From NCBI GenBank assembly GCA_903826405.1, contig CAIKEH010000007.1, positions 1-64,000 on the forward strand: a DNA stretch of 64,000 nt. Direction: 5' to 3'. Shown one piece after another: positions 37,640 to 61,121 of this stretch. Source of the DNA: an uncultured bacterium (GTDB taxonomy: Bacteria > Bacteroidota > Bacteroidia > Chitinophagales > Chitinophagaceae). Within the stretch, counting starts at the first letter, position 1. Every line of letters starts with the position of its first letter. The position numbers were made by a program, and so were the translations under genes. Under the pieces are notes generated by a model that was given only the letters and a program-made list of their open reading frames with translations, ran no database searches and was not told where the DNA came from.

Positions 37640-40600
37640 ATGCATTCAAACACCACAAAAAGTACGGATCTGTTCATGATGCCTGTTGAAAAACTCACCA
37701 GGCATTTCGCCGTCATTTTTATGCTGATGATTTTTGCAACGGGCGTTCATGGCCAATTAAAAGCTGATTTCACGGCCGACAAATTCACTGGTTGCGCACC
37801 AATCATTGTGAATTTTACCGATCTCTCCACTGGGAGTCCCGATTCCTGGTCCTGGGACTTCGGGAATGGAACCCCGGTGGCCATTTTACAAAACCCTGGA
37901 ACAACCTATCTCAAAGGAGCGGTATACAATGTCACACTCACAGTAAAAAGGACCTCGACCGGAGAAACATCAAAGATCACCAAACCAGTTACCATCTTAT
38001 CTCCTCCGTATGTTGATTTTGTGGCAAATGATAGTTCGGGTTGCTTCCCACTGGGTCTTAAATTCACAGATAGGACAATTGCTCAAGGGGGTAAAATAAC
38101 TTCCTGGACTTGGGATTTCGGTGACGGAACCGTAGTGAATGACCAGAACCCCACCCATACTTATACACTCACCGGGAAATTCAATGTTCTACTGAAAGTT
38201 TCGCAGGACAATGGCTGTCCCGGTAGTTTGACCAAGACCGCTTATATTGATGTTGCACAAGGGGTAAATGCCGACTTCTATACTTTGCCGCCAGCCGGTT
38301 GCAAACCACCCTTCACGATCCAATTCAAAAATATTTCAACAGGACCCGGAAATCTGATTTATAGCTGGGATTTCGGCAATGGGCAAACCTCAAATCAGAA
38401 AGAGGATATTGCCATTTACCCCACCGGTGGCGCTTTCCCCGTCAAACTCAAAGTGACAAGTGATAAAGGGTGTTCCGCAACGGTCAATAGGAGCATCAAC
38501 ATGCCTACAAGCACTATAAAATCCTCTTTCACTGCACCGGATACGGTCTGCTTAGGTCAAAATGTGAATTTCGATAATACATCACAACCGGATCCGGATA
38601 GCAGTTTCTGGAGTTTCGGAGATGGCACGACATCACAGTTGCTCATTCCCGTGAACAAATCATTTGGATCTACAGGTACGTTTCAGGTGACTTTGATCAA
38701 TAAATTCGGAGCCTGCCTGGACTCCTTCAGCAAGACGATCGTGGTTCCCGCACCACCTGTGATCAATTTCACAAGTACCGGTCAAGTGAGTTGCAAAGTG
38801 CCGTACACGGTCACATTAAAAGACGCCACTCCAAATGCAATTGCCTGGAACTGGCAAGCCACGAATGGCATAAATTCCATTATCAATGCGAATGGGATCA
38901 GCCCGACCATGACCTTCACCGAATTGGGTAATTATGCCGTATACCTTTATGTTGTAGACAAACTGGGATGTACATCTTCAACTACATACCCGGATTTCAT
39001 TAAGATCGCAGCACCAAAGATCGAACTCAAGAACTATCCGGATAGCGGATGTGCTCCGTTCACAACAATTCCTGACCTTAAAGTAAACGCTATAGATGGC
39101 GTCAAATCATATACATGGGATTGGGGAGACCAGACCACCACGACCGGCAACCCTGCATCTCATTCTTATCCCAATACCGGAACCTACAACACCAACGTAA
39201 GGATCATAACCAACAGCGGCTGCGATACACTGATATCCCCTGGACCAGTCAAAGTAGGCTCTTTACCGGTAAAGTCAGATTTCACATCTTCCACTCAAAA
39301 CAGCTGCGCAGGAACGGATATCGTTTTCACGGATATAACTGCCGATCCTTCAAAAATCACAGGATGGCAATGGGCATTTGGCGACGGATTTTACTCCAAT
39401 GAGAGAAATCCCAAATATGCATATTCAGACACTGGCACCTTCACTGTCACGCTGAAAGTTTTCACCAATGGTTGCGGCAGTATTGAACGCAAAGAAAATT
39501 TCATAAAGAATTATGGAACGGTGGCCCGTTTCAATTTTACCGTTGACTGTCAAAATAGAAATACAGTTGTTTTCCAGGATAGTTCGATCAATGCCACCAA
39601 ACTGGTTTGGGATTTCAAAGATGGAAGTCCCACTTATACCGGAGCAAACCCTCCGCCACATAGTTTCCCTGAATACAAAGATTATTTCGTTGAATTGACC
39701 GCCACCAATAACGCATGCGCATTCACCACAAACAGAAGAGTTCGTGTAGTGAATGAAAGATCGGACTTCTTGATCACCCCCAACCCGCTTTGTAAAGGTG
39801 TAGCGGCTGGTTTTTTTTCCCAGAACAGTTTAGATTCCAACATTGTATCCTATGAATGGGATTTCGGAAGCGGGAATTATGTTTTGGGGCAACGAACCGC
39901 ACAGTCTGCTTTCATAAATAGCGGCTTATTCAATACCAGACTTCGAATTACGGACGTGAACGGCTGCGTGGACACATCCTCCAAGCCACTTGGAGTGGGA
40001 GGCCCTAAAGCTAGTTTTGGATCTTTCAACCCGACGGGTTGCAAAGGCATAGTCGTCGATTTCAATGACAATTCCCAGACTGATGGCGCAAACCCCATAA
40101 TTACCAGGATTTGGGATTTTGGCGACGGAACCGGTACACAAATCATCAATACTCCCCCCTTTCAACATCAATACTTGAAACCTGGTTCATTCTCTGTAAA
40201 ACTCAAAATCATTGATGCTGGCGGATGTGCTGATAGTCTTAACATAGGAGGGCTTGTGGTCATTTCGGAACCTAAGGCACAGTTCAACACTACAGACACA
40301 CTAACTTGTCCTGGAGGAAGGGCAGTTCAGTTTGATAATCAGACAGGTGGCACAGTGAACAATTTCACCTGGACATTCGGCGACGGAACAACTTCAAATC
40401 TCAGAAACCCACTGCACTTTTATAACAATGTAGGAGTATTTGACATCAAACTAAAGATCAGGGACCGTTATGGTTGCGAAGACTCCCTGATAAAATACAA
40501 GCTCGTAACGGTGGATACGCCATACGCTGCCTTCACCATCAGTGATTCCGTAGGGAACTGCCCACCCTTGAAAGTCGACTTTAAGTTTACGGGGCGATAT

Positions 40601-42511
40601 CAGCAGAGCCTCCGATGGGAATTCGGAGACAATAATGTTTCCGACCTGATCAATGCCGAACACTTTTATACCAGGGCAAAGATATATACGCCAAAACTCA
40701 TCGTCACCAGCCCCGGCGGGTGCACGTCCACCGCAGAAAAAACAATCAGCATTTTCGGGCCCGATGGCAATATCCTCTTCTCACCTCCAGGAGGTTGCGA
40801 GCCCCTCACCGTTCAATTCTCGGCTAGTACGCTCAGGGATGTGGACTACATAGCCTGGGATTTCGGTGATGGCCTGATCAAGACGAAAGACTCCATTCAA
40901 GTGCACTCTTATATGACCAATGGGATATACTACCCGGTCATCAGCCTGATCAGCGACAAGTTGGACTGTAGCGTCGCTTTCAAATTGGACTCCATAAAGG
41001 TCATCAAATTATTCCCGAAAATCGCGGCCGACAAACTGACGATTTGCAAAGAAGGTGTGATCCAATTTCATGATTCCACCACCAGTGTTGGAATCATAAA
41101 CGGATGGCAATGGGATTTCGGAGATGGCAGCACTTCAGATCAGAAAGACCCTTCACATTTTTATTCATCGGCAGGTCTCTATACGGTAAAACTCATCGTG
41201 GCAACGGAATTCGGATGTACTGACTCCATCACACTTCCCGACCCCATAAGAGTTGTTGCCCCGCCCACTATCGACATCAACGCAAGCCTTGATTCAGTTT
41301 GTCAGAATGCATTGATCAGCTTCAAGGGCATCGAGACCATTAAAGACACATCCAATTTGAGTTGGGATTGGAATTTGGGCAACGGACAATTTTCATCACT
41401 TCAAGAGCCGCCGGCACAACAATATGGAACTCCCGGTACGCCTACCATACAACTGGTCGCCACAAACAGCAGCGGATGTAAGGATACAGCTCAAAAAGCG
41501 ATCACGATCATGTCGCTCCCATCGACCAAGGCACCTCTGGATACTTTTATCTGTAAAGGACAATCCATTCAATTAGTGGCCACTGGTGCTGATAGGTACC
41601 AATGGCAGCCTCCGGGAAATAATCTGAGTTGCCTTACCTGTGCGGATCCAGTTGCAGACCCTCCCACGAATTCACTATACATAGTGGCTGGATTCAACAT
41701 ATTCGGATGTATGCAGAAGGACTCAATAAATCTGACCGTGATCCAACCATCCACGGTAAAAGCACCCGAGAACGACTCTCTTTGCTTCGCGCAGGCTCTG
41801 AAATTGATCGCAACCGGAACAGAAGTATACCAATGGTCACCCTCCACTGGCCTGAGTGACCCTAACATTCCTAATCCGCAAGCCAGACCATCGACAACTA
41901 CCACATATGTGGTTACCGGTTCAGATAGCAAAAATTGTTTCACCTCAAAGGATTCAGTTCTGATCAAAGTATTCCCCTATCCGAAACTATTCATTGGTTC
42001 GGACACGACCATATCTGTAGGTGCCTCACTCCCCATACTTGCATCCGTATCGTCGGATGTACTGGGTATTAAATGGGATCCTGCTTCCACACTTTCTTGT
42101 TCCGACTGCTACTATACAGTGGCAAAACCTCCCTCAAGCACAACATATAAAGTCACCGTCATCAACGATGGAGGCTGTGAGACGACCGACGAGATCACGG
42201 TGAACGTAATCTGTAACAATTCCAATATTTACATGCCCAATACTTTTTCACCGAACGGTGATGGCATGAATGATCTATATTATCCACGAGGGCACGGCAT
42301 TCAGAACATTCGTTCCCTGAGGATCTTCAGCAGATGGGGACAGATGTTATACTCCAGACAGAATTTCAATGCGAATGACGAATCGGCAGCTTGGGATGGT
42401 CGTTTCAAATCACAGGATCTGACCCCGGACGTATATGTGTACATCATGGAATTGATCTGTGAGAATGGATCAGTGATCACTACAAAAGGAGACATAACCC
42501 TGATCAGATAA
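37640..42511 (+). CDS. Giant PKD-repeat surface protein with type B T9SS domain
   Basis: A 1623-residue secreted protein, probably a surface adhesin of the SprB/gliding-associated kind. A signal peptide ends near VHGQ (the real start may be ATG 37676 or 37679). Then come about 15 PKD or PKD-like repeats of ~80-90 residues, recognised by WDFGDG-type motifs (WSWDFGNG, WTWDFGDG, YTWDWGDQ, WQWAFGDG, IAWDFGDG, WQWDFGDG) and by a Cys near the start of many repeats. Three Ig-like units with YQWxP motifs follow (about 1290-1510). The C-terminal ~90 residues (YMPNTFSPNGDGMNDLYYPR to KGDITLIR) are the gliding-motility/CHU_C type B T9SS sorting domain. A PorP/SprF gene follows after 12 bases. Confidence 0.93.
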   Translation: MHSNTTKSTDLFMMPVEKLTRHFAVIFMLMIFATGVHGQLKADFTADKFTGCAPIIVNFTDLSTGSPDSWSWDFGNGTPVAILQNPGTTYLKGAVYNVTLTVKRTSTGETSKITKPVTILSPPYVDFVANDSSGCFPLGLKFTDRTIAQGGKITSWTWDFGDGTVVNDQNPTHTYTLTGKFNVLLKVSQDNGCPGSLTKTAYIDVAQGVNADFYTLPPAGCKPPFTIQFKNISTGPGNLIYSWDFGNGQTSNQKEDIAIYPTGGAFPVKLKVTSDKGCSATVNRSINMPTSTIKSSFTAPDTVCLGQNVNFDNTSQPDPDSSFWSFGDGTTSQLLIPVNKSFGSTGTFQVTLINKFGACLDSFSKTIVVPAPPVINFTSTGQVSCKVPYTVTLKDATPNAIAWNWQATNGINSIINANGISPTMTFTELGNYAVYLYVVDKLGCTSSTTYPDFIKIAAPKIELKNYPDSGCAPFTTIPDLKVNAIDGVKSYTWDWGDQTTTTGNPASHSYPNTGTYNTNVRIITNSGCDTLISPGPVKVGSLPVKSDFTSSTQNSCAGTDIVFTDITADPSKITGWQWAFGDGFYSNERNPKYAYSDTGTFTVTLKVFTNGCGSIERKENFIKNYGTVARFNFTVDCQNRNTVVFQDSSINATKLVWDFKDGSPTYTGANPPPHSFPEYKDYFVELTATNNACAFTTNRRVRVVNERSDFLITPNPLCKGVAAGFFSQNSLDSNIVSYEWDFGSGNYVLGQRTAQSAFINSGLFNTRLRITDVNGCVDTSSKPLGVGGPKASFGSFNPTGCKGIVVDFNDNSQTDGANPIITRIWDFGDGTGTQIINTPPFQHQYLKPGSFSVKLKIIDAGGCADSLNIGGLVVISEPKAQFNTTDTLTCPGGRAVQFDNQTGGTVNNFTWTFGDGTTSNLRNPLHFYNNVGVFDIKLKIRDRYGCEDSLIKYKLVTVDTPYAAFTISDSVGNCPPLKVDFKFTGRYQQSLRWEFGDNNVSDLINAEHFYTRAKIYTPKLIVTSPGGCTSTAEKTISIFGPDGNILFSPPGGCEPLTVQFSASTLRDVDYIAWDFGDGLIKTKDSIQVHSYMTNGIYYPVISLISDKLDCSVAFKLDSIKVIKLFPKIAADKLTICKEGVIQFHDSTTSVGIINGWQWDFGDGSTSDQKDPSHFYSSAGLYTVKLIVATEFGCTDSITLPDPIRVVAPPTIDINASLDSVCQNALISFKGIETIKDTSNLSWDWNLGNGQFSSLQEPPAQQYGTPGTPTIQLVATNSSGCKDTAQKAITIMSLPSTKAPLDTFICKGQSIQLVATGADRYQWQPPGNNLSCLTCADPVADPPTNSLYIVAGFNIFGCMQKDSINLTVIQPSTVKAPENDSLCFAQALKLIATGTEVYQWSPSTGLSDPNIPNPQARPSTTTTYVVTGSDSKNCFTSKDSVLIKVFPYPKLFIGSDTTISVGASLPILASVSSDVLGIKWDPASTLSCSDCYYTVAKPPSSTTYKVTVINDGGCETTDEITVNVICNNSNIYMPNTFSPNGDGMNDLYYPRGHGIQNIRSLRIFSRWGQMLYSRQNFNANDESAAWDGRFKSQDLTPDVYVYIMELICENGSVITTKGDITLIR

Positions 42512-42523
42512 TCCAAAACCAAT

Positions 42524-43555
42524 TTGAAAACAGGAAAAACGATACCATTTGTCATCTTATACATGCTGACCCTCGCGTTTGGGATCAAGAGCATTCGTGC
42601 GCAGGATCTCCATTTTTCCCAATTCTACGAAGCACCACTGCTTCGTAATCCATCACTTGCCGGACTGTTCGAAGGAGATGTGAGGGTGCAGGGTGTATAC
42701 CGCAGCCAGTGGAACAGCATCGCTTTTCCCTACCAGACCGGATCGATCAACGCCGAATATAAATTTCATGTCGGCAAAGGGGATGACTTCATGAGCGCCG
42801 GATTCCAGACCCTTTACGATCGCGCCGGCACAGTCGCACTCTCGACGACCCACTTGATGCCAGCAGTGAATTTCCATAAATCGATCAGCGCTACAAGATC
42901 GATGTATCTTTCACTGGGCTTCATGGGTGGGCCCGTTTCCCGCTCACTGGACAGATCCCGAATAACGACCAACAACCAGTTTGATGGCTTCGCCTATAAT
43001 GGCTCCTTACCGGATGGAGAGACCTTCACGGCGAATTATACTTATCTGGACATGAATGTCGGCATGAGTTTCAATTCGACATTGGGCGTCAACGGCCAGC
43101 ACCTATTCTTCGCCGGTCTAGCGCTTCAGCATTTCAACAAACCCACTAATTCATTCTATAGAAATATCAACCACTTGCCCAAATGGGTATTGTCCACTGG
43201 GTTAAAAATGAATATAAACCCATTCTCATACATCACTTTTTCCGGTGATTATTCACGGCAAAATCCCTTCCAGGAAATCATCGCAGGAGCTATGTATTCC
43301 AGAAAGATCGGGGATGATGACGTACCTTCTTATACAATACATGGCGGCATGTACATGAGGTACAAAGATGCCATCATTCCAGTGGTGAAAATGGACTACT
43401 ACCCATTTTCCCTGGCCTTCAGCTATGACATCAACATCTCTCAGCTTTCGATAGCCAGCGCGGGACGGGGAGGAATGGAAGTCTCCCTATCTTATATCAC
43501 ATATGTGAAAAAAGAGAACAGTTCCCGCGACAAAGTGAAATGTCCCCGATTCTGA
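42524..43555 (+). CDS. PorP/SprF-family outer-membrane protein, first copy
   Basis: A 343-residue T9SS-associated membrane protein. The family includes Porphyromonas PorP and Flavobacterium SprF; SprF is needed for surface delivery of the adhesin SprB. The TTG at 42524 is used because it gives a full signal peptide (MKTGKTIPFVILYMLTLAFG, cut after IRAQ); no ATG occurs early enough. The mature start QDLHFSQFYEAPLLRNPSLAG is the family hallmark, and the rest alternates as beta-strands. It is directly downstream of the PKD adhesin and should serve its export or anchoring. The second copy is at 56313. Confidence 0.93.
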   Translation: MKTGKTIPFVILYMLTLAFGIKSIRAQDLHFSQFYEAPLLRNPSLAGLFEGDVRVQGVYRSQWNSIAFPYQTGSINAEYKFHVGKGDDFMSAGFQTLYDRAGTVALSTTHLMPAVNFHKSISATRSMYLSLGFMGGPVSRSLDRSRITTNNQFDGFAYNGSLPDGETFTANYTYLDMNVGMSFNSTLGVNGQHLFFAGLALQHFNKPTNSFYRNINHLPKWVLSTGLKMNINPFSYITFSGDYSRQNPFQEIIAGAMYSRKIGDDDVPSYTIHGGMYMRYKDAIIPVVKMDYYPFSLAFSYDINISQLSIASAGRGGMEVSLSYITYVKKENSSRDKVKCPRF

Positions 43556-43634: not shown

Positions 43635-44105
43635 ATGAGCATAGAGATCGGAAAACCCGCTCCCCATTTCAGCCTTTATGACACGGAAAAAAAGAAGGTC
43701 AACCTTGTGGATTTCCAAGGTAAAAATGTATTGCTCCTGTTCTTTCCACAGGCATTCACTGGGGTATGTACTCAAGAACTATGCTCCATTAGAGACAATA
43801 TGCATCAATATTCAGACCTTAACGCAGAGGTGCTTGGAATTTCCGTAGACTCCATCTTCACCCTGGCCAAGTATAAGCAAGATCAACAATACAACTTCCC
43901 CTTGCTGTCTGATTTCAACAAGGATGTCAGCAAACAATACGGCGCCCTCTACGACACCTTTGTTTTTGACATGAAAGGTGTCTCCAAGAGATCCGCTTTC
44001 CTGATCGACAAAACTGGAACGGTGCAATATGCTGAGGTCCTTGAAAACGCAGGGGAAATACCTTCTTTTCAGGCAATACAGGATACACTTCGTACGTTAC
44101 AATAG
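43635..44105 (+). CDS. Peroxiredoxin (AhpC/TSA, AhpE/BCP-like)
   Basis: A 156-residue thiol peroxidase that reduces hydrogen and organic peroxides in the cytoplasm. The peroxidatic Cys is Cys45 in FFPQAFTGVCTQELC (PxxxTxxC pattern), with Cys50 five residues on as a possible resolving Cys, the BCP arrangement. The N-terminal IGKPAPHFSLYD and C-terminal KRSAFLIDKTGTVQYAE segments are typical. Reductant (thioredoxin or other) is not known. Single gene with its own promoter. Confidence 0.93.
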   Translation: MSIEIGKPAPHFSLYDTEKKKVNLVDFQGKNVLLLFFPQAFTGVCTQELCSIRDNMHQYSDLNAEVLGISVDSIFTLAKYKQDQQYNFPLLSDFNKDVSKQYGALYDTFVFDMKGVSKRSAFLIDKTGTVQYAEVLENAGEIPSFQAIQDTLRTLQ

Positions 44106-44187: not shown

Positions 44188-44218
44188 TTGTAAAAACACC
44201 CAATTAAGCCTAATTTTA
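44188..44218 (+). promoter_or_regulatory. Possible promoter of the mini T9SS-domain gene
   Basis: TTG (44188-44190), 20 bases, TAATTTTA (44211-44218), one base from the -7 consensus. The ATG is at 44244. Confidence 0.35.
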
Positions 44219-44243
44219 TATTGGATCTCTACCATTTGATCGG

Positions 44244-44588
44244 ATGAAGAACTTTACGATTCTACTCATAATGGGGTTTCTCTTTCTCGGAACGGCCAAG
44301 GCCCAATCCGGAAGGCCTACCGTTCCCCAGGGTTCGGGTTTCAGGATCATGAAGTTTTTCCCAAATCCCGCATCCACTTATATCCATTTTGAATTCCAAA
44401 AGGATTTTGACAAGACCTACATACTCCAGATTTATAATTTCCTCGGGAAGAAAGTAGCAGACTTAAATCAGGTTACCCCTCGAAATCAGATCGACGTTTC
44501 GGGTTTCAATCGCGGTATATATATATACCAATTAAAAGACCTCACCGGGAAAGTCATCGACTCAGGCAAATTTCAGGTGGAACGATGA
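44244..44588 (+). CDS. Miniature secreted protein: signal peptide plus type A T9SS domain
   Basis: A 114-residue protein with a signal peptide (residues 1-20, ending AKAQ) and a type A T9SS C-terminal sorting domain filling nearly all of the rest: FFPNPASTYIHFEFQ opens the domain, LQIYNFLGKKV is the central strand motif, and GIYIYQLKD...GKFQVER closes it. Only about 13 residues lie between the signal cut and the domain, so there is no cargo domain. Type A domains are normally removed by the PorU sortase when cargo is released or lipid-linked. Whether the product acts as a small surface peptide, a regulator or a decoy is unknown. It stands alone, with a possible promoter upstream. Confidence 0.85.
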   Translation: MKNFTILLIMGFLFLGTAKAQSGRPTVPQGSGFRIMKFFPNPASTYIHFEFQKDFDKTYILQIYNFLGKKVADLNQVTPRNQIDVSGFNRGIYIYQLKDLTGKVIDSGKFQVER

Positions 44589-44617: not shown

Positions 44618-45790
44618 CTACTGCACCTGCACGATCAGGAATTTCAGATAATTCGTATTCTCGAGTCCATGAATGATGGGATGATCGGGGGATTGGGGCT
44701 GAAAAACCACCTGACGCAACTTGCGGCGGGCATCTTTGGCCGCCATTTCTATGACCTCTAAAAAAAGCTCGGGTTGTACCAAGTTGGTGCAGGAGGAAGT
44801 GACCAGAAATCCTCCCGGTCTTACGAGTTTCATTCCCCGAAGGTTGATCTCCTTGTATCCACTGATTGCTTTTTGAATATTTTCCCTGGTCTTGGTAAAC
44901 GAGGGAGGATCCAACATGACCACATCCCAGTTCCTCCCTTCTTTCACCCATAGCTTAAGCACGTCGAACGCATTCACAGTCTGGAAACTGCAGACTTTTT
45001 CCAACCCGTTCAAACTGGCATTCCGTTCAGCCTGCCGGATAGCAGGCTCAGAAATATCCAAGCCAAGCACGGATTTGGCACCGTACTGTGCAGCATGAAT
45101 TTCGAAAGTTCCCGTATAACAGAATGCCCCTAAAACATCAGCATCCTTGACTATATTCCTGATGGCACGGCGATTGTCCTGCTGATCCAGAAAATAACCG
45201 GTTTTCTGCCCCTTTTCCAGATCAACATGGAAACGGAGTCCGTTTTCTTTGATCACAATATCCGTATCGAACGTTGGTCCGAGAAATCCCTTGTATTGGG
45301 AAAGCCCTTCCAATTCCCGTACAGGCACATCATTTCTTTCATAAATACCCTTGGGTGAGAAAATGCGGCGTAGCGCCTTTTCTATAGCAGGTTTCCAAAT
45401 ATCGATGCCCAGTGCGAGCGTCTGAATCACGAAATAGTCATTGAATTTGTCAATGATCAATTGGGGAAGTTCATCGGCTTCTCCAAAAATGAGTCTGCAA
45501 TTCTCCGTATAACCTATCCGTTGACGATATTGCCATGCTTTTAGGATCCGATTGTAGAAAAATTCTTCGTTAATCTGCTCTTGACGATCCCTTGTCAACA
45601 AACGTACTAGAATCTGGGACCTGGGGTTCAGATACCCCCTTCCAACGAATTTCCCATCTGAAGTGGTCACCTCCGCGATCTCACCTCCGTTCACTTCACC
45701 TGACACACTCTCCACTTCATTGCCGAAGATCCAAGGATGCCCGTTCAGAACACGATTCCCGATCCGTTTCCTAAGTCTTACCATGATCAT
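44618..45790 (-). CDS. 23S rRNA cytosine-5 methyltransferase, RlmI-like
   Basis: A 390-residue class I SAM-dependent RNA methyltransferase of the RlmI/YccW group (m5C1962 in E. coli). The start at 45790 or 45784 gives the canonical N-terminus VRLRKRIGNRVLNGHPWIF, the beginning of a PUA domain; the frame runs on upstream to 45958 without meaning. SAM motif: DADVLGAFCYTGTFEIHAA; catalytic region: VMLDPPSFTKT and LVTSSCTNLV with its Cys. The exact target base in this lineage is inferred. It diverges from the lipoprotein gene at 45900. Confidence 0.92.
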   Translation of the reverse strand: MIMVRLRKRIGNRVLNGHPWIFGNEVESVSGEVNGGEIAEVTTSDGKFVGRGYLNPRSQILVRLLTRDRQEQINEEFFYNRILKAWQYRQRIGYTENCRLIFGEADELPQLIIDKFNDYFVIQTLALGIDIWKPAIEKALRRIFSPKGIYERNDVPVRELEGLSQYKGFLGPTFDTDIVIKENGLRFHVDLEKGQKTGYFLDQQDNRRAIRNIVKDADVLGAFCYTGTFEIHAAQYGAKSVLGLDISEPAIRQAERNASLNGLEKVCSFQTVNAFDVLKLWVKEGRNWDVVMLDPPSFTKTRENIQKAISGYKEINLRGMKLVRPGGFLVTSSCTNLVQPELFLEVIEMAAKDARRKLRQVVFQPQSPDHPIIHGLENTNYLKFLIVQVQ

Positions 45791-45899
45791 GCTGACAAAG
45801 TTAATCAGGATGTGGCTATTTAGGGATCGAATGATGGATTCGATTTTCAATGCTGTTTTTTCCTTAGTCTGACAATCTGTATTTTTAGAAAAATTTCTT

Positions 45900-56312: not shown

Positions 56313-57404
56313 TCACTTGGCGAAACTAGGACACATGGACTGCCGCTTATCCCCATTGAAAGTGGCATAGTTGCCGCTATACTGCAGAGCGAACTCCAGC
56401 GCTCCATTAACATTTGTATAATTTCGCAGTGCGGAGGTGGTTGCATCGTAACTGAACATGAACCTGAAATTCCTCCATTGGTATCCGATCATCGGTATTA
56501 TCGCATTTCCCACGCGCATGTACAGGCCGGCAATGAGTTGTTGGTCTCCATCACCCGTCAGGTTGTAATTCGCATGAATACCTGCCATCCACTCCGTTGC
56601 CTTCGCCTGAGTACTGAAATAGGCGGCCGGGGTGATGATGACCTGGTCACTCACCTTGAACATGCCGTCTAGAAAAAAGATATAACGCTGCGCGATACGG
56701 TTGTCATAATTCGGTGAAGAGTTGAAAAAACTCTCCTGTGGGCGATTGATGTGCTGGATGGAAAACCCGCCGTGCAGATAAATATTGTCCTTGGGGAACC
56801 AGGCGTAATTCAGGCCAGCCTGAAGATCGAAATAAGTGATATTGTTTGCATTGAAATTCTCCCCACTCGGCGTGTAGGCATCGAAGAAATGACCATTCCA
56901 TTGATTGTCGAAGGTGAAATTGGCGATATTGATCCGTTTGTTGGTGAGCCCCAAGTTGAAGCCTGCGCTGAGCAGACCGGTATTGCCGAGCATCTGGTGA
57001 TAAGCGGCTGAACCATATATTTTCGTGGAGGTCAGATTCCCACTACCTGCAACGTCATGGAGGATGAGTCCTCCCAGCCCTACCCAACCATTATCAAATC
57101 GATTACGAAAGGCTTGGGCATCCCCGTAAATGCTCATGGTCCGGTAAGGAACTGGTACGTTAGCCCACTGGCTTCTGTAATTCGCACCCAACCTATAATC
57201 AGATGAGGGCAAGAAACCCGTGTTCGCCGGATTGGTGGAAAGAGGTGAGTTGAAGAATTGGGAAAAATGAAGATCCTGAGCTTTTGCCTCATCAACACGT
57301 ATCAGGCAAAAAAGCATCATGCACCCAGATAGCAGGAATGAAGCCCGTTGTATTGCCCGACGAAATGGTATCTTATATTTTCCGATCATCATCATTCTTT
57401 GCAT
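56313..57404 (-). CDS. PorP/SprF-family outer-membrane protein, second copy
   Basis: A 363-residue member of the same family as the protein at 42524. The signal peptide is long (start MQRMMMIGKYKIPFRRAIQR, hydrophobic region about 22-36, cut after KAQ), and the mature part again begins QDLHFSQFFNSPLSTNPANTG. The two copies share the strand layout (YRSQW, VGLGG, QHINRPQESF versus QHFNKPTNSF) but differ in most residues. It follows the 1228-residue PKD protein by 30 bases, so each PorP/SprF copy has its own large partner. It ends in CPSFAK, as the first copy ends in CPRF. Confidence 0.93.
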   Translation of the reverse strand: MQRMMMIGKYKIPFRRAIQRASFLLSGCMMLFCLIRVDEAKAQDLHFSQFFNSPLSTNPANTGFLPSSDYRLGANYRSQWANVPVPYRTMSIYGDAQAFRNRFDNGWVGLGGLILHDVAGSGNLTSTKIYGSAAYHQMLGNTGLLSAGFNLGLTNKRINIANFTFDNQWNGHFFDAYTPSGENFNANNITYFDLQAGLNYAWFPKDNIYLHGGFSIQHINRPQESFFNSSPNYDNRIAQRYIFFLDGMFKVSDQVIITPAAYFSTQAKATEWMAGIHANYNLTGDGDQQLIAGLYMRVGNAIIPMIGYQWRNFRFMFSYDATTSALRNYTNVNGALEFALQYSGNYATFNGDKRQSMCPSFAK

Positions 57405-57434
57405 GTCATCCCGAAGTATCTCTAATGATTTCTG

Positions 57435-60400
57435 TCATCTGATCAGGGTCACATTACCCTTCTTGGTCGCCTTGTTGCCATCGCTGAACACCACATCAAC
57501 TACATATGCATATGCATCCATGGGTTGCAATGTGCCTTTGAATTTTCCGTCCCAACCATCTGACTGGTCGGCCGAATGATAGACCAATTGCCCCCATCGG
57601 TTATAAACTCTAAAATCGAGTTTGGAGATGCCGTACCCCCTTACCAGGAGTCGGTCATTGATCCCATCTCCATTGGGCGTAAATGCACTGGGTATATCGA
57701 ACAAGGCGTTGATCAGTGCAGGCACTTCTTGGCAAAGCGTATCAAAACATCCAAAAGAATTATAGGCAAGAAGACAGGCGTTGAATAATGCTGTGGCCTT
57801 ATACTGATGAAGAGGGCTCACTAATCTGGAGGTATCCCCATCACCAAAGTCCCAAAAATAACCTTGTGCACCCTTTGATAGATTCGTGAACTGCGTCGGT
57901 GTATTTTCCTGTGCGGGATCGGGGCCCCATGAAAATCCGGCTATGGGATTGTCATGCACCGAAAGATTTGTAGTGAAAGTATCCCTTAGATTACAGGTTG
58001 AGGGATCTATGGCCACAAGTGTGACCACATAATCTCCCGTTCCGGGATAAACTTTGGCAGGAGGATCGGATCCAACATAGGTAGTTCCGTCACCAAAGTC
58101 CCAGATGAATGACTGCCCTCCGATGGAAGTATTCTTGAATAAGGCCGTATAGGGAGCACAACCTGATGGAGGTGAATCAAAATGAGCAGAGACATTGGGG
58201 GCGAGTCTAACCACTTTGGTGATCGAATCCGGCGAATTGCAATAGGACGTATCCTCCAAAATCAGTTTAACGTTGTAGGTGCCGGCAGCTGGGTAAGTAT
58301 GTGTCTGGGGTGCTGATCCGGTTTTCAACCTGGGGCTATTGTCCCCAAAATCCCAAGTGAATACCACCCCGAATGGTTCACCGGGTGGTGCTACAGAGAG
58401 ATTGTCGAAGCGGTAAGCCAGGCTCTCACAGGGTGGCAACTTGGCTGCAGACAGATCAACCAACGCCTTGTCGGAACGTACGCGCACATGAGTATAGGAA
58501 GTGTCCCTCGTGATGCATTTTGATGGATCAATGGCAACCAGAGTGACCTTGTAAAATCCAGGAATGGTATAGTTGTAACTGGTATTGGGTGAAGTGGTGG
58601 TTTGCACAGGTGACCCATCTCCAAAATCCCATTCATAGGATGTAGCGGTACCAATGGTATCTGCAAGATCAACTTTCAAGGGAACGCATCCGGCAGAATC
58701 GTAAGGAATGCCATTGATGGAAACCTGGGCACCTGCCTTAACGCCGTCATAATCGAACAGTATCTTGACTGCTCCCAGGTTGCAGTCACCAGCCGTACCA
58801 CCAGCGCCTAACGCCCCATTAATGGGTGCGACAACACCGGGCGTGGTGGGAAACTGCCCGGTGACGGGCGAACAGGTTCCTGTAAGGTTGCCGCCACAAT
58901 TGGCACAGATAGCCTGATAAATGGCGCCTCGCTTATCGAATCGACTGGTGCCGCCATCCACATGGTCCCCTTCGCCGCCTGTCTGCCCGAAAAAGCTTCC
59001 AAAAAGCTGGGAATTTCCGTCTTTTTCCATCACGAAAAAGTAGAAGTCACGATTGTCCGTTGTTTTTTTAATAGCATCGGGCGTGATACGCATTCCTAAA
59101 GGACCAGCGGTCTTGGTGTCAAAGCAATCCGATCCTTGTGAACAGACATTCAGCGCACCTCCCCATCCCGAAACGTAAATATTCTCACATCGATCGACCA
59201 GAAAGGCAACAGGAGAAATATTGGGAACCGAAGATGCCGTACCAAAGACCGTTGAATAAACATATGCCGAAAGATCGGGTTGAAGTTTTGAAATGAATTG
59301 GTGTGCGCCAGGATCCTGGTAAGGTATATTGGCAGGAAGTATTTTCCAACTACCCAGGCTGATTCCCATGACATAGGGGAAACCTACCCTGTCGAACTGG
59401 ATCCCATAAATGATGTCCAGGTTCCCTGTTCCCAAATAAGTGGTGCGGATAAGCGGTGACCCGGATGCTGAAAACTCTGCGATATATCCATCGATGTCTC
59501 CAGCAGATCCTCCTAGGGCAGGTTGTATCACACCTGTCTTGTTTCCGGGAAGATTGGAAGAAGCGGTGCCACCAGCCATGTAAATATTACCCGACAAAGG
59601 ATTTATGGCCAGTACGAATCCAGCATCATCTTCATCCCCACCAAAATAGGTGCTGAAGAGTACGTTGCTCAGATCCGGTGAAAGTTTGATGAGGACTGCG
59701 TCCTGCTTCCCGGCAAGTGCTCCTTGAACCGGGTTCACAGTGGGAAAATCATCAGATTGTGTTGATGCAGCCACGTACACATTGTTTGACCCATCTAAAA
59801 TGACCTCACTGCGTTGATTGTCCCCATAATTATATACAAGGGATCCACATTTCGGCGGATAGTTGGGATCGATGTTAGCTCCATCTGTGCCCCTGCCTCC
59901 AATACGAATGGAACCCATGAGCAGATTCCCATTGGCACTTAATTTGGAGACAACGATATCCGTTTCCCCTCCCGGACCAAAGGTTCCCGTCGTGGAGGGA
60001 TAATTGGAGGATGTCGTCCTGCCTAAAATCACGAGATTACCTTGAGGATCGGAGAACAGGCTATGAGGATAATCATCCCCACTTCCACCAAGATAAGTGG
60101 AATAGATCCTTGATCTTCCGTCCGGGCTAAGTCTGGTTATGCCTATATCAATTCCCAAAAGTTGACCTCCTCCAAAAGTGCCCTGAAATGCTCCCAATGT
60201 GATGGGATATCCCTGACCAAAAACGATCCCACCGGTAAAAAAACTGCCATCGGGACCCGGAGTGGCTGTATAGCCCCAATTGCTCGCTTTGCTGCCAGTG
60301 AAAGTGGAAAATATAAGTGTAGGATCGATGATCAGATCGGATTTTCTATCATATTCCCGCGTCTTGAATCTTACTTGATTGCCGGAAACCGCGAACTGGC

Positions 60401-61121
60401 ATCCCACATCCGTTTTTTTACCGTCAACGACCTGATATGCATAAGGCTCCAGCTCCTTTGCCTCTCCTACGGAAGTCTGTATATGCAGTTGCCCATTCCG
60501 AACAGATAGTTTTTCAGCTCCTTCATATCTCATCATTATCCGGGAAAGATCCGCGCCAGGATGAGCAATGATGTCGTATTTCAACTGACCATCCCCGGAA
60601 TAATATCTCACGTCGACATTAGGATAAATATTCTTATAGACAACGGATTGAAACGACTTTACATCAGACTTCCATTTTAAAGGATCGTTGCCGATGAAAT
60701 AATTTGAATGCGCGCTTGTTTGTCGCTCACCCACCACTATGGCATCGGGCATGCTTCCCATGAAGCTCACCCGATAAGCATGCGAATGCATCATGATACC
60801 TTGAGGGGGCAATGCGGGAAGTGGTATCGGCCTTCCGTACTTATCCTTATCCTTCGAATTTTGCTGACCTGTTTCAACATGCCTATGGAGATAATTCAAT
60901 ACCTGCTGGTAATCCTCCACTTTGTTCTGCAGTACGGTGAACCCCTGTTTCTCGATGAAGAAAATCCCATTACCCACCTGACTTTTGAACTGGAAAGGTT
61001 CCGTCCATTGACCCTTGTTCTCTGTGAATTCCATCGCATAATACTGCTGAGCCCCAAGTTGTTGGCAGAGGAGGATGGACAAGACCGGGATCAGCTTATG
61101 CAGATTGGTTTTCAGGGCCAT
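57435..61121 (-). CDS. SBBP/PKD surface protein with type B T9SS domain
   Basis: A 1228-residue secreted protein. Signal peptide 1-24 (ending LGAQ); a DUF7948-like N-terminal domain (about 30-270, FTENKGQWTEPFQFKSQVGN); SBBP-type beta-propeller repeats (about 290-720) with STYLGGSGDDYPHSL and STYFGGDEDDAGFVL motifs; four PKD repeats (about 800-1130) with YEWDFGDG, FTWDFGDN, FIWDFGDG and YFWDFGDG; and a C-terminal gliding-type sorting domain (SAFTPNGDGINDRLLVRGYG to KGNVTLIR). It is likely exported by T9SS and kept on the surface with help from the PorP/SprF protein 30 bases downstream. Ligand unknown. Confidence 0.93.
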   Translation of the reverse strand: MALKTNLHKLIPVLSILLCQQLGAQQYYAMEFTENKGQWTEPFQFKSQVGNGIFFIEKQGFTVLQNKVEDYQQVLNYLHRHVETGQQNSKDKDKYGRPIPLPALPPQGIMMHSHAYRVSFMGSMPDAIVVGERQTSAHSNYFIGNDPLKWKSDVKSFQSVVYKNIYPNVDVRYYSGDGQLKYDIIAHPGADLSRIMMRYEGAEKLSVRNGQLHIQTSVGEAKELEPYAYQVVDGKKTDVGCQFAVSGNQVRFKTREYDRKSDLIIDPTLIFSTFTGSKASNWGYTATPGPDGSFFTGGIVFGQGYPITLGAFQGTFGGGQLLGIDIGITRLSPDGRSRIYSTYLGGSGDDYPHSLFSDPQGNLVILGRTTSSNYPSTTGTFGPGGETDIVVSKLSANGNLLMGSIRIGGRGTDGANIDPNYPPKCGSLVYNYGDNQRSEVILDGSNNVYVAASTQSDDFPTVNPVQGALAGKQDAVLIKLSPDLSNVLFSTYFGGDEDDAGFVLAINPLSGNIYMAGGTASSNLPGNKTGVIQPALGGSAGDIDGYIAEFSASGSPLIRTTYLGTGNLDIIYGIQFDRVGFPYVMGISLGSWKILPANIPYQDPGAHQFISKLQPDLSAYVYSTVFGTASSVPNISPVAFLVDRCENIYVSGWGGALNVCSQGSDCFDTKTAGPLGMRITPDAIKKTTDNRDFYFFVMEKDGNSQLFGSFFGQTGGEGDHVDGGTSRFDKRGAIYQAICANCGGNLTGTCSPVTGQFPTTPGVVAPINGALGAGGTAGDCNLGAVKILFDYDGVKAGAQVSINGIPYDSAGCVPLKVDLADTIGTATSYEWDFGDGSPVQTTTSPNTSYNYTIPGFYKVTLVAIDPSKCITRDTSYTHVRVRSDKALVDLSAAKLPPCESLAYRFDNLSVAPPGEPFGVVFTWDFGDNSPRLKTGSAPQTHTYPAAGTYNVKLILEDTSYCNSPDSITKVVRLAPNVSAHFDSPPSGCAPYTALFKNTSIGGQSFIWDFGDGTTYVGSDPPAKVYPGTGDYVVTLVAIDPSTCNLRDTFTTNLSVHDNPIAGFSWGPDPAQENTPTQFTNLSKGAQGYFWDFGDGDTSRLVSPLHQYKATALFNACLLAYNSFGCFDTLCQEVPALINALFDIPSAFTPNGDGINDRLLVRGYGISKLDFRVYNRWGQLVYHSADQSDGWDGKFKGTLQPMDAYAYVVDVVFSDGNKATKKGNVTLIR

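Follow-up and report, generated by a model that had tools for sequence, protein, structure and literature searches.

A small exported protein, conserved in one bacterial family, that folds as little more than a type A sorting domain

Between a peroxiredoxin gene and a convergent gene for an RlmI-type 23S rRNA methyltransferase lies an open reading frame with an ATG start and an in-frame stop codon upstream (Table 1). It is found in the window, by which we mean the whole stretch of 64,000 nucleotides that was analysed (positions 1 to 64,000 of contig CAIKEH010000007.1, assembly GCA_903826405.1, from an uncultured bacterium). The gene is conserved and encodes a small exported protein of which a type A sorting domain is the sole folded part. 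The original prediction of a genuine cargo-free sorting-domain protein is thus borne out, by the matches to PF18962 and TIGR04183, by a signal peptide read by eye and by the same architecture in relatives. Because relatives share this layout, in most cases at the corresponding genomic locus, it is more than a product of chance.

Table 1 Features of the locus and of the encoded protein
Feature	Position	Strand	Basis
Giant PKD protein with a type B sorting domain, adjoining the PorP/SprF gene	37640–42511	+	Scan
T9SS membrane protein of the PorP/SprF family, adjacent in some relatives	42524–43555	+	Scan and locus comparison
Peroxiredoxin (AhpC/TSA), usual upstream neighbour	43635–44105	+	Scan and synteny
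Possible −7-type promoter boxes	44211–44238	+	TAATTTTA at 44211–44218 and imperfect TACCATTTG at 44230–44238; consensus match only
Stand-alone type A sorting-domain protein, 114 residues	44244–44588	+	Open reading frame, PF18962/TIGR04183 matches, relatives
Signal peptide, residues 1–20, predicted cleavage before Q21	44244–44303	+	By-eye reading
Short linker, residues 21–35, poorly conserved	44304–44348	+	Low pLDDT, low identity
Type A sorting domain, seven-stranded sandwich, residues 36–114	44349–44585	+	PF18962/TIGR04183, AlphaFold2 model, PDB match to mirolase CTD 8qb1
G68 K69 K70, L-β3-β4 motif (NFLGKK)	44445–44453	+	G68 in 81/81 members
R90 G91 I92 Y93, Arg before the GxY motif	44511–44522	+	Arg in 79/81 members
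G108 K109 F110 near the C terminus	44565–44573	+	K109 in 78/81 members
RlmI-type 23S rRNA methyltransferase, usual convergent downstream neighbour	44618–45805	−	Scan and synteny; start codon by choice

Read by eye, the predicted signal peptide ends in AKA and is followed directly by a glutamine that is conserved in 75 of 81 homologues; a glutamine immediately after the signal peptide is the Bacteroidetes Q-rule described in PMC5837995. Separating the signal peptide from the PNP motif are some 18 residues, about 15 of which precede the first predicted strand, so that the gap of roughly 13 residues first proposed was an underestimate (about 15–18). This linker is disordered in the AlphaFold2 model (pLDDT below 50 for mature residues 1–11), its mean majority residue reaches 34% across residues 21–36 of the 81 homologues, and its length varies among these members. 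No passenger domain of the kind carried by ordinary T9SS cargo is present in the window protein or in the members read, which have the short linker alone, and the 81 distinct family members are 109–121 residues long.

The remainder of the protein matches both type A sorting-domain models above their curated cut-offs, Por_Secre_tail PF18962 over residues 39–105 (E=3.8e-12, 46.7 bits against a cut-off of 27) and TIGR04183 over residues 39–102 (E=1.7e-11, 44 bits against 23), and PF18962 is found in all 31 sequences of the family profile. Modelled with AlphaFold2 from an alignment of the mature window protein with 14 relatives (mean pLDDT 81.5, pTM 0.68), the domain forms a seven-stranded immunoglobulin-like sandwich, with all seven strands after mature residue 11. 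The best PDB match of the model, and the sole one at E≤0.001, is the sorting domain of mirolase (8qb1, E=7.9e-4, TM 0.67/0.71), and the T9SS translocon-bound CTDs (8gl8, 8glk and 8gl6) and PorZ (5m11) are within the best 50 matches. Ranks 2–5 are occupied by DUF3244 (PF11589) proteins from Bacteroides, whose solved chains comprise 86–99 residues and which share the sandwich fold but differ in sequence: 3 of 31 family members touch the DUF3244 model (best E 0.002), and for the window protein no PF11589 match is listed with a limit of E=10. In fold these Bacteroides proteins look like free sorting domains, and our guess is that they may represent sorting domains whose T9SS is gone.

Residues linked to secretion are kept in this domain. 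One set is the L-β3-β4 motif, which is tied to secretion in sections 5 and 7 of PMC11285876; according to that source, the motif was demonstrated for P. gingivalis, and mirolase does not conserve it. Another is a conserved lysine near the C terminus, described as secretion-linked in section 7 of PMC10994853 and section 6 of PMC11285876. Both the glycine of the L-β3-β4 motif and the C-terminal lysine are present in the window protein, and 64 of the 81 members have a spacing of 76 between the PNP motif and the C terminus. As G68 and K109 are kept, the domain should still be a valid T9SS signal. The arginine before the GxY motif is found in 79 of 81 family members and in all 20 PorU domains compared, and is rare in cargo domains (3 of 40), these being hand-picked from one genus and the PorU domains coming mostly from other genera; that R90 is common to the family and PorU hints indirectly at a likeness to retained CTDs.

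The gene is widespread within one bacterial family. A single-sequence search at E≤1e-6 hit 40 of 60 genomes; 26 of these hits are short frames from the genus, counting that of the window's own genome. With the family profile the gene is found in 27 of 41 genus genomes, with one short copy per gene-bearing genome, and one weaker genus match (1.5e-17) sits in a frame of 878 residues. As the remaining 14 of the 41 gave no match in this search, the gene is dispensable. At least 13 other short sorting-domain frames (under 220 residues) occur in the genus, and of the nine that were read none consists solely of a signal peptide and the domain: five reach a contig edge or contain N, two carry some 60–115 residues ahead of the domain, and two lack a signal peptide by eye.

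In surveys that scored 11–15 candidates per genome, the profile matched 249 of 294 family genomes at E≤1e-12. Clear members (about E≤1e-20; 4e-22 or better) are present in 207 of the 294, leaving 87 in which the gene is absent or weakly matched. The weaker matches (4.5e-19 or worse) fall in 42 family genomes and include at least one divergent stand-alone copy (locus L117 of genome G216), and for this reason the count of 207 may be low. Across the order, matches at E≤1e-20 come from 116 of 396 genomes, which all belong to one family, and across the phylum 12 of 395 match at E≤1e-18, all in that same family; among these 395 phylum genomes no match at E≤1e-18 lies outside it. The family in question is probably Chitinophagaceae, to which we take Cnuella and Paracnuella to belong; the gene is present in Cnuella takakiae, a member available in culture.

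The surroundings of the gene are conserved as well. Co-directional peroxiredoxin upstream and convergent RlmI-type methyltransferase downstream frame it at 65 of 82 loci; within the stretch read, the others have the methyltransferase alone (9), the peroxiredoxin alone (3) or neither (5). Synteny was counted in all 82 loci; one of them (L026/L062) is left out of the profile and of the 81 members, no start codon having been found there. Thirteen of the 14 genus genomes that lack the gene are readable at the locus, the methyltransferase having been found, and in all 13 the peroxiredoxin directly adjoins the methyltransferase; 11–99 bases separate the aligned ends, and no vestige of the gene is seen. 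At these loci the gene was cleanly lost or was never present. The same 13 genomes all have SprA, and 12 of them have PorU.

These observations bear on whether the gene is a stranded remnant of a larger cargo gene, for which we found nothing in favour. Against it stand the equal-sized relatives throughout the family, the purifying selection on the domain described below and the junctions free of remnants where the gene is absent, and we reject it as a scarcely credible explanation. The view that the gene is no simple truncation has likewise held up: among the listed matches at E≤1e-20 (those of the family survey being listed down to 6.6e-32) there is no fused cargo, and the open frames are at most 207 residues long. 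The earlier proposal to examine conservation and synteny is answered by the counts given above (27 of 41 genus genomes, 207 of 294 family genomes and 65 of 82 loci).

Preceding the gene in the window and in part of the relatives are the type B giant and the PorP/SprF gene. A coupling to this neighbouring pair was considered and rejected, as the gene stays where the pair is absent from the locus, and no linkage of the gene to core T9SS genes was found. The window holds two giant type B sorting-domain proteins (37640–43555 and 56313–61121), each adjoining a PorP/SprF-like gene, the second of these genes being named by its similarity to the first.

The domain is under purifying selection while the linker drifts. 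Among the 60 closest of 79 pairs of related sequences, which do not include the window protein, dS is saturated in 37; in the 23 pairs with finite dS, which share sequences and of which 13 alone have dS below 1.5, dN/dS of the domain is 0.01–0.12, far below the value near 1 that had been named as grounds for abandoning the prediction. The signal peptide and linker show the higher dN in most pairs. Mean pairwise identity across 20 genomes is 58% for the domain, 29% for the linker and 62% for the PorU sorting domain of those genomes, and the domain is the more conserved of the two sorting domains in 48 of 190 pairs, PorU being ahead in most.

If the protein were ordinary T9SS cargo, the linker of about 15 residues would be the cargo, a peptide released or linked to lipopolysaccharide after PorU cleavage. 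Pairs of the PorU cleavage type (T/E/D/N followed by G/A/S) occur in 52 of 81 linkers, against a mean of 43 in shuffled linkers (range 30–54), which lies on the side of this explanation. The window protein's own linker contains no such pair, however, linker identity is half that of the domain (29% against 58%), linker length is variable, and the gene is retained where PorU or any C25 peptidase is unmatched. A peptide cargo in the linker is therefore judged unlikely on grounds of low identity and variable length, and of the readings in which the protein is a T9SS substrate or regulator we give it the smallest share. The depletion of PorU-type pairs that would be expected if the domain were never cut was not found in the 81 linkers either, so the reading of the domain as uncleaved gains no help from them.

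For the plausible promoter of the original prediction, candidate boxes are present upstream of the gene; the near box is imperfect in the window, and the promoter is less clear there than in many relatives. A TAnnTTTG-like box lies 4–8 bases before the start codon in 40 of 81 members, and when boxes at every scanned distance are counted, 69 of 81 members have one that scores 5 of 6 points or better, where shuffled sequences give 28 (39 at most). An identical box, TAAATTTG, stands 5 bases before a TTG start codon in 13 of the 81 members (L031, L034, L035, L065, L067, L071, L077, L078, L084, L085, L097, L102 and L108), a spacing that suggests very short or absent 5′ leaders in these 13. TTG is the start codon, as chosen by us, in 29 of the 81 members.

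The machinery that would handle a type A domain was surveyed with at most two candidates scored per genome for PorU and SprA, absence meaning that no match was found. The window's own genome has both proteins. Matches to SprA occur in 280 of the 294 family genomes; of the 207 gene-bearing genomes, 204 have one. Canonical PorU is matched in 184 of the 294 and in 110 of the 207, leaving 110 family genomes, 97 of them gene-bearing, with no match. Of these 97, 58 were rechecked with PF01364 at E≤1e-10, and 47 have a C25 peptidase domain, mostly in open frames of about 1600–1860 residues; the single C25 protein that was scanned (genome G020, locus L140, C23:317500-325000) is PorU2, beside PorV2. 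In the remaining 11 of the 58 no C25 peptidase matches at E≤1e-10. Three of these 11 genomes are single-contig (G117, G176 and G178), and the gene is intact in the five of the 11 that were read. SprA was found in 10 of the 11.

With no PorU match in 97 of 207 gene-bearing genomes and no C25 match in 11 of 58, cleavage by a C25/PorU-type sortase cannot be the general role of the protein, and dependence on PorU is rejected as a rule, the gene being kept without a PorU match. On the same counts, the suggestion that occupying or testing the sortase is the protein's main task is not supported. A decoy or timer, regulating throughput by engaging the PorU sortase or the translocon, would account for an intact signal without cargo; in view of the 97 genomes that keep the gene without a canonical PorU match, we consider it improbable, though the protein may still occupy SprA.

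Dependence on the T9SS as such is a separate matter, on which two lineages point in opposite directions. In G178, a single-contig genome that bears the gene, no SprA match reaches E≤1e-80, an argument against a strict dependence of the gene on the T9SS. Conversely, in genus g45 none of the five genomes (G085, G181, G250, G297 and G336) has an SprA match at E≤1e-80 and the genus has no copy of the gene, which speaks for such a dependence. Each is a single lineage. A C25 peptidase is kept in four of the five g45 genomes despite the missing SprA match.

The main rival to a role within the T9SS is that the sandwich is a small secreted effector or matrix protein of sorting-domain descent, acting in the medium or at the surface, possibly without SprA or PorV. 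Compared by description alone, the 112-residue Fjoh_0547 of Flavobacterium johnsoniae, a small CTD-containing protein, is similar in size, and differs in that PMC7712824 says it is secreted without SprA or PorV, namely by sprA and porV mutants, a behaviour that would suit an effector. Also in keeping with an effector are the DUF3244 proteins at ranks 2–5 of the fold matches, the three of 31 family members that touch the DUF3244 model, the retention of the gene without PorU or C25 matches, and its presence in G178 without an SprA match. On the other side, the secretion motifs and the C-terminal length are strictly kept, nearly all gene-bearing genomes have SprA (204 of 207), and genus g45, with five of five genomes lacking an SprA match, has no copy. 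Weighing these, we regard an effector as rather unlikely, while rating it well above the other rivals.

The protein's function, we propose tentatively and as our best guess, is that of the sorting domain itself, docked uncleaved on a barrel of the PorV family. After Sec export the domain would fold in the periplasm, and the T9SS (SprA/PorV) would handle it like a normal type A signal. Lacking cargo, it would then stay bound, uncleaved, as a ligand of an outer-membrane barrel of the PorV family (PorV, PorV2 or PorQ), and once docked it could modulate or cap that barrel. The protein may also occupy the translocon or act as an adaptor. The docking is modelled on the CTDs of PorU and PorZ: as section 16 of PMC10202324 has it, the PorU CTD is not removed and stays on PorV, and the PorZ CTD is retained and binds PorQ. 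The initial statement that type A domains are normally cut off was accordingly too strong. With the PorU CTD the family shares a similar level of conservation and the arginine before GxY. PorU and PorZ differ in carrying large functional domains, and the PorU CTDs sampled measure 97 residues, against about 80 here by the same start rule. Ordinary type A cargo (TIGR04183/PF18962) is alike in its complete sorting domain, secretion motifs and fold; the family differs in having no passenger and a domain of nearly fixed length.

A second precedent is PorA (PGN_0123) of Porphyromonas gingivalis, which PMC7712824 describes as a small CTD protein, present partly in its CTD-containing form, whose CTD binds PorV and which influences T9SS expression. 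By analogy, the protein might be a surface part that reports the state of the T9SS to the PorXY–SigP pathway. PorA differs, however, in being 246 residues long with a FimH-like N-terminal domain; the window protein has no such domain, for which 109–121 residues leave no room, and the gene is missing in part of the genus. A PorA-like reporter is thus about as doubtful as a decoy. Titles and the openings of abstracts, in a partial coverage of the literature, hold no description of a CTD family that is conserved and free of cargo.

The usual view of sorting domains is that of signals to be discarded. A domain that lacks cargo, is widespread and strongly constrained, and is kept even in genomes that give no match to the known sortases suggests a second role for such domains. 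A shade less confidently than the docking itself, we suggest that Chitinophagaceae possess a family of free, uncleaved sorting domains that serve as permanent subunits or regulators of T9SS outer-membrane barrels. Generic sorting-domain models alone match these genes, so that annotation hides them among ordinary cargo. The protein would be among the smallest natural substrates for the recognition and release of a type A domain by SprA/PorV, and, if the proposed docking is true, an address label would have been turned into a machine part.
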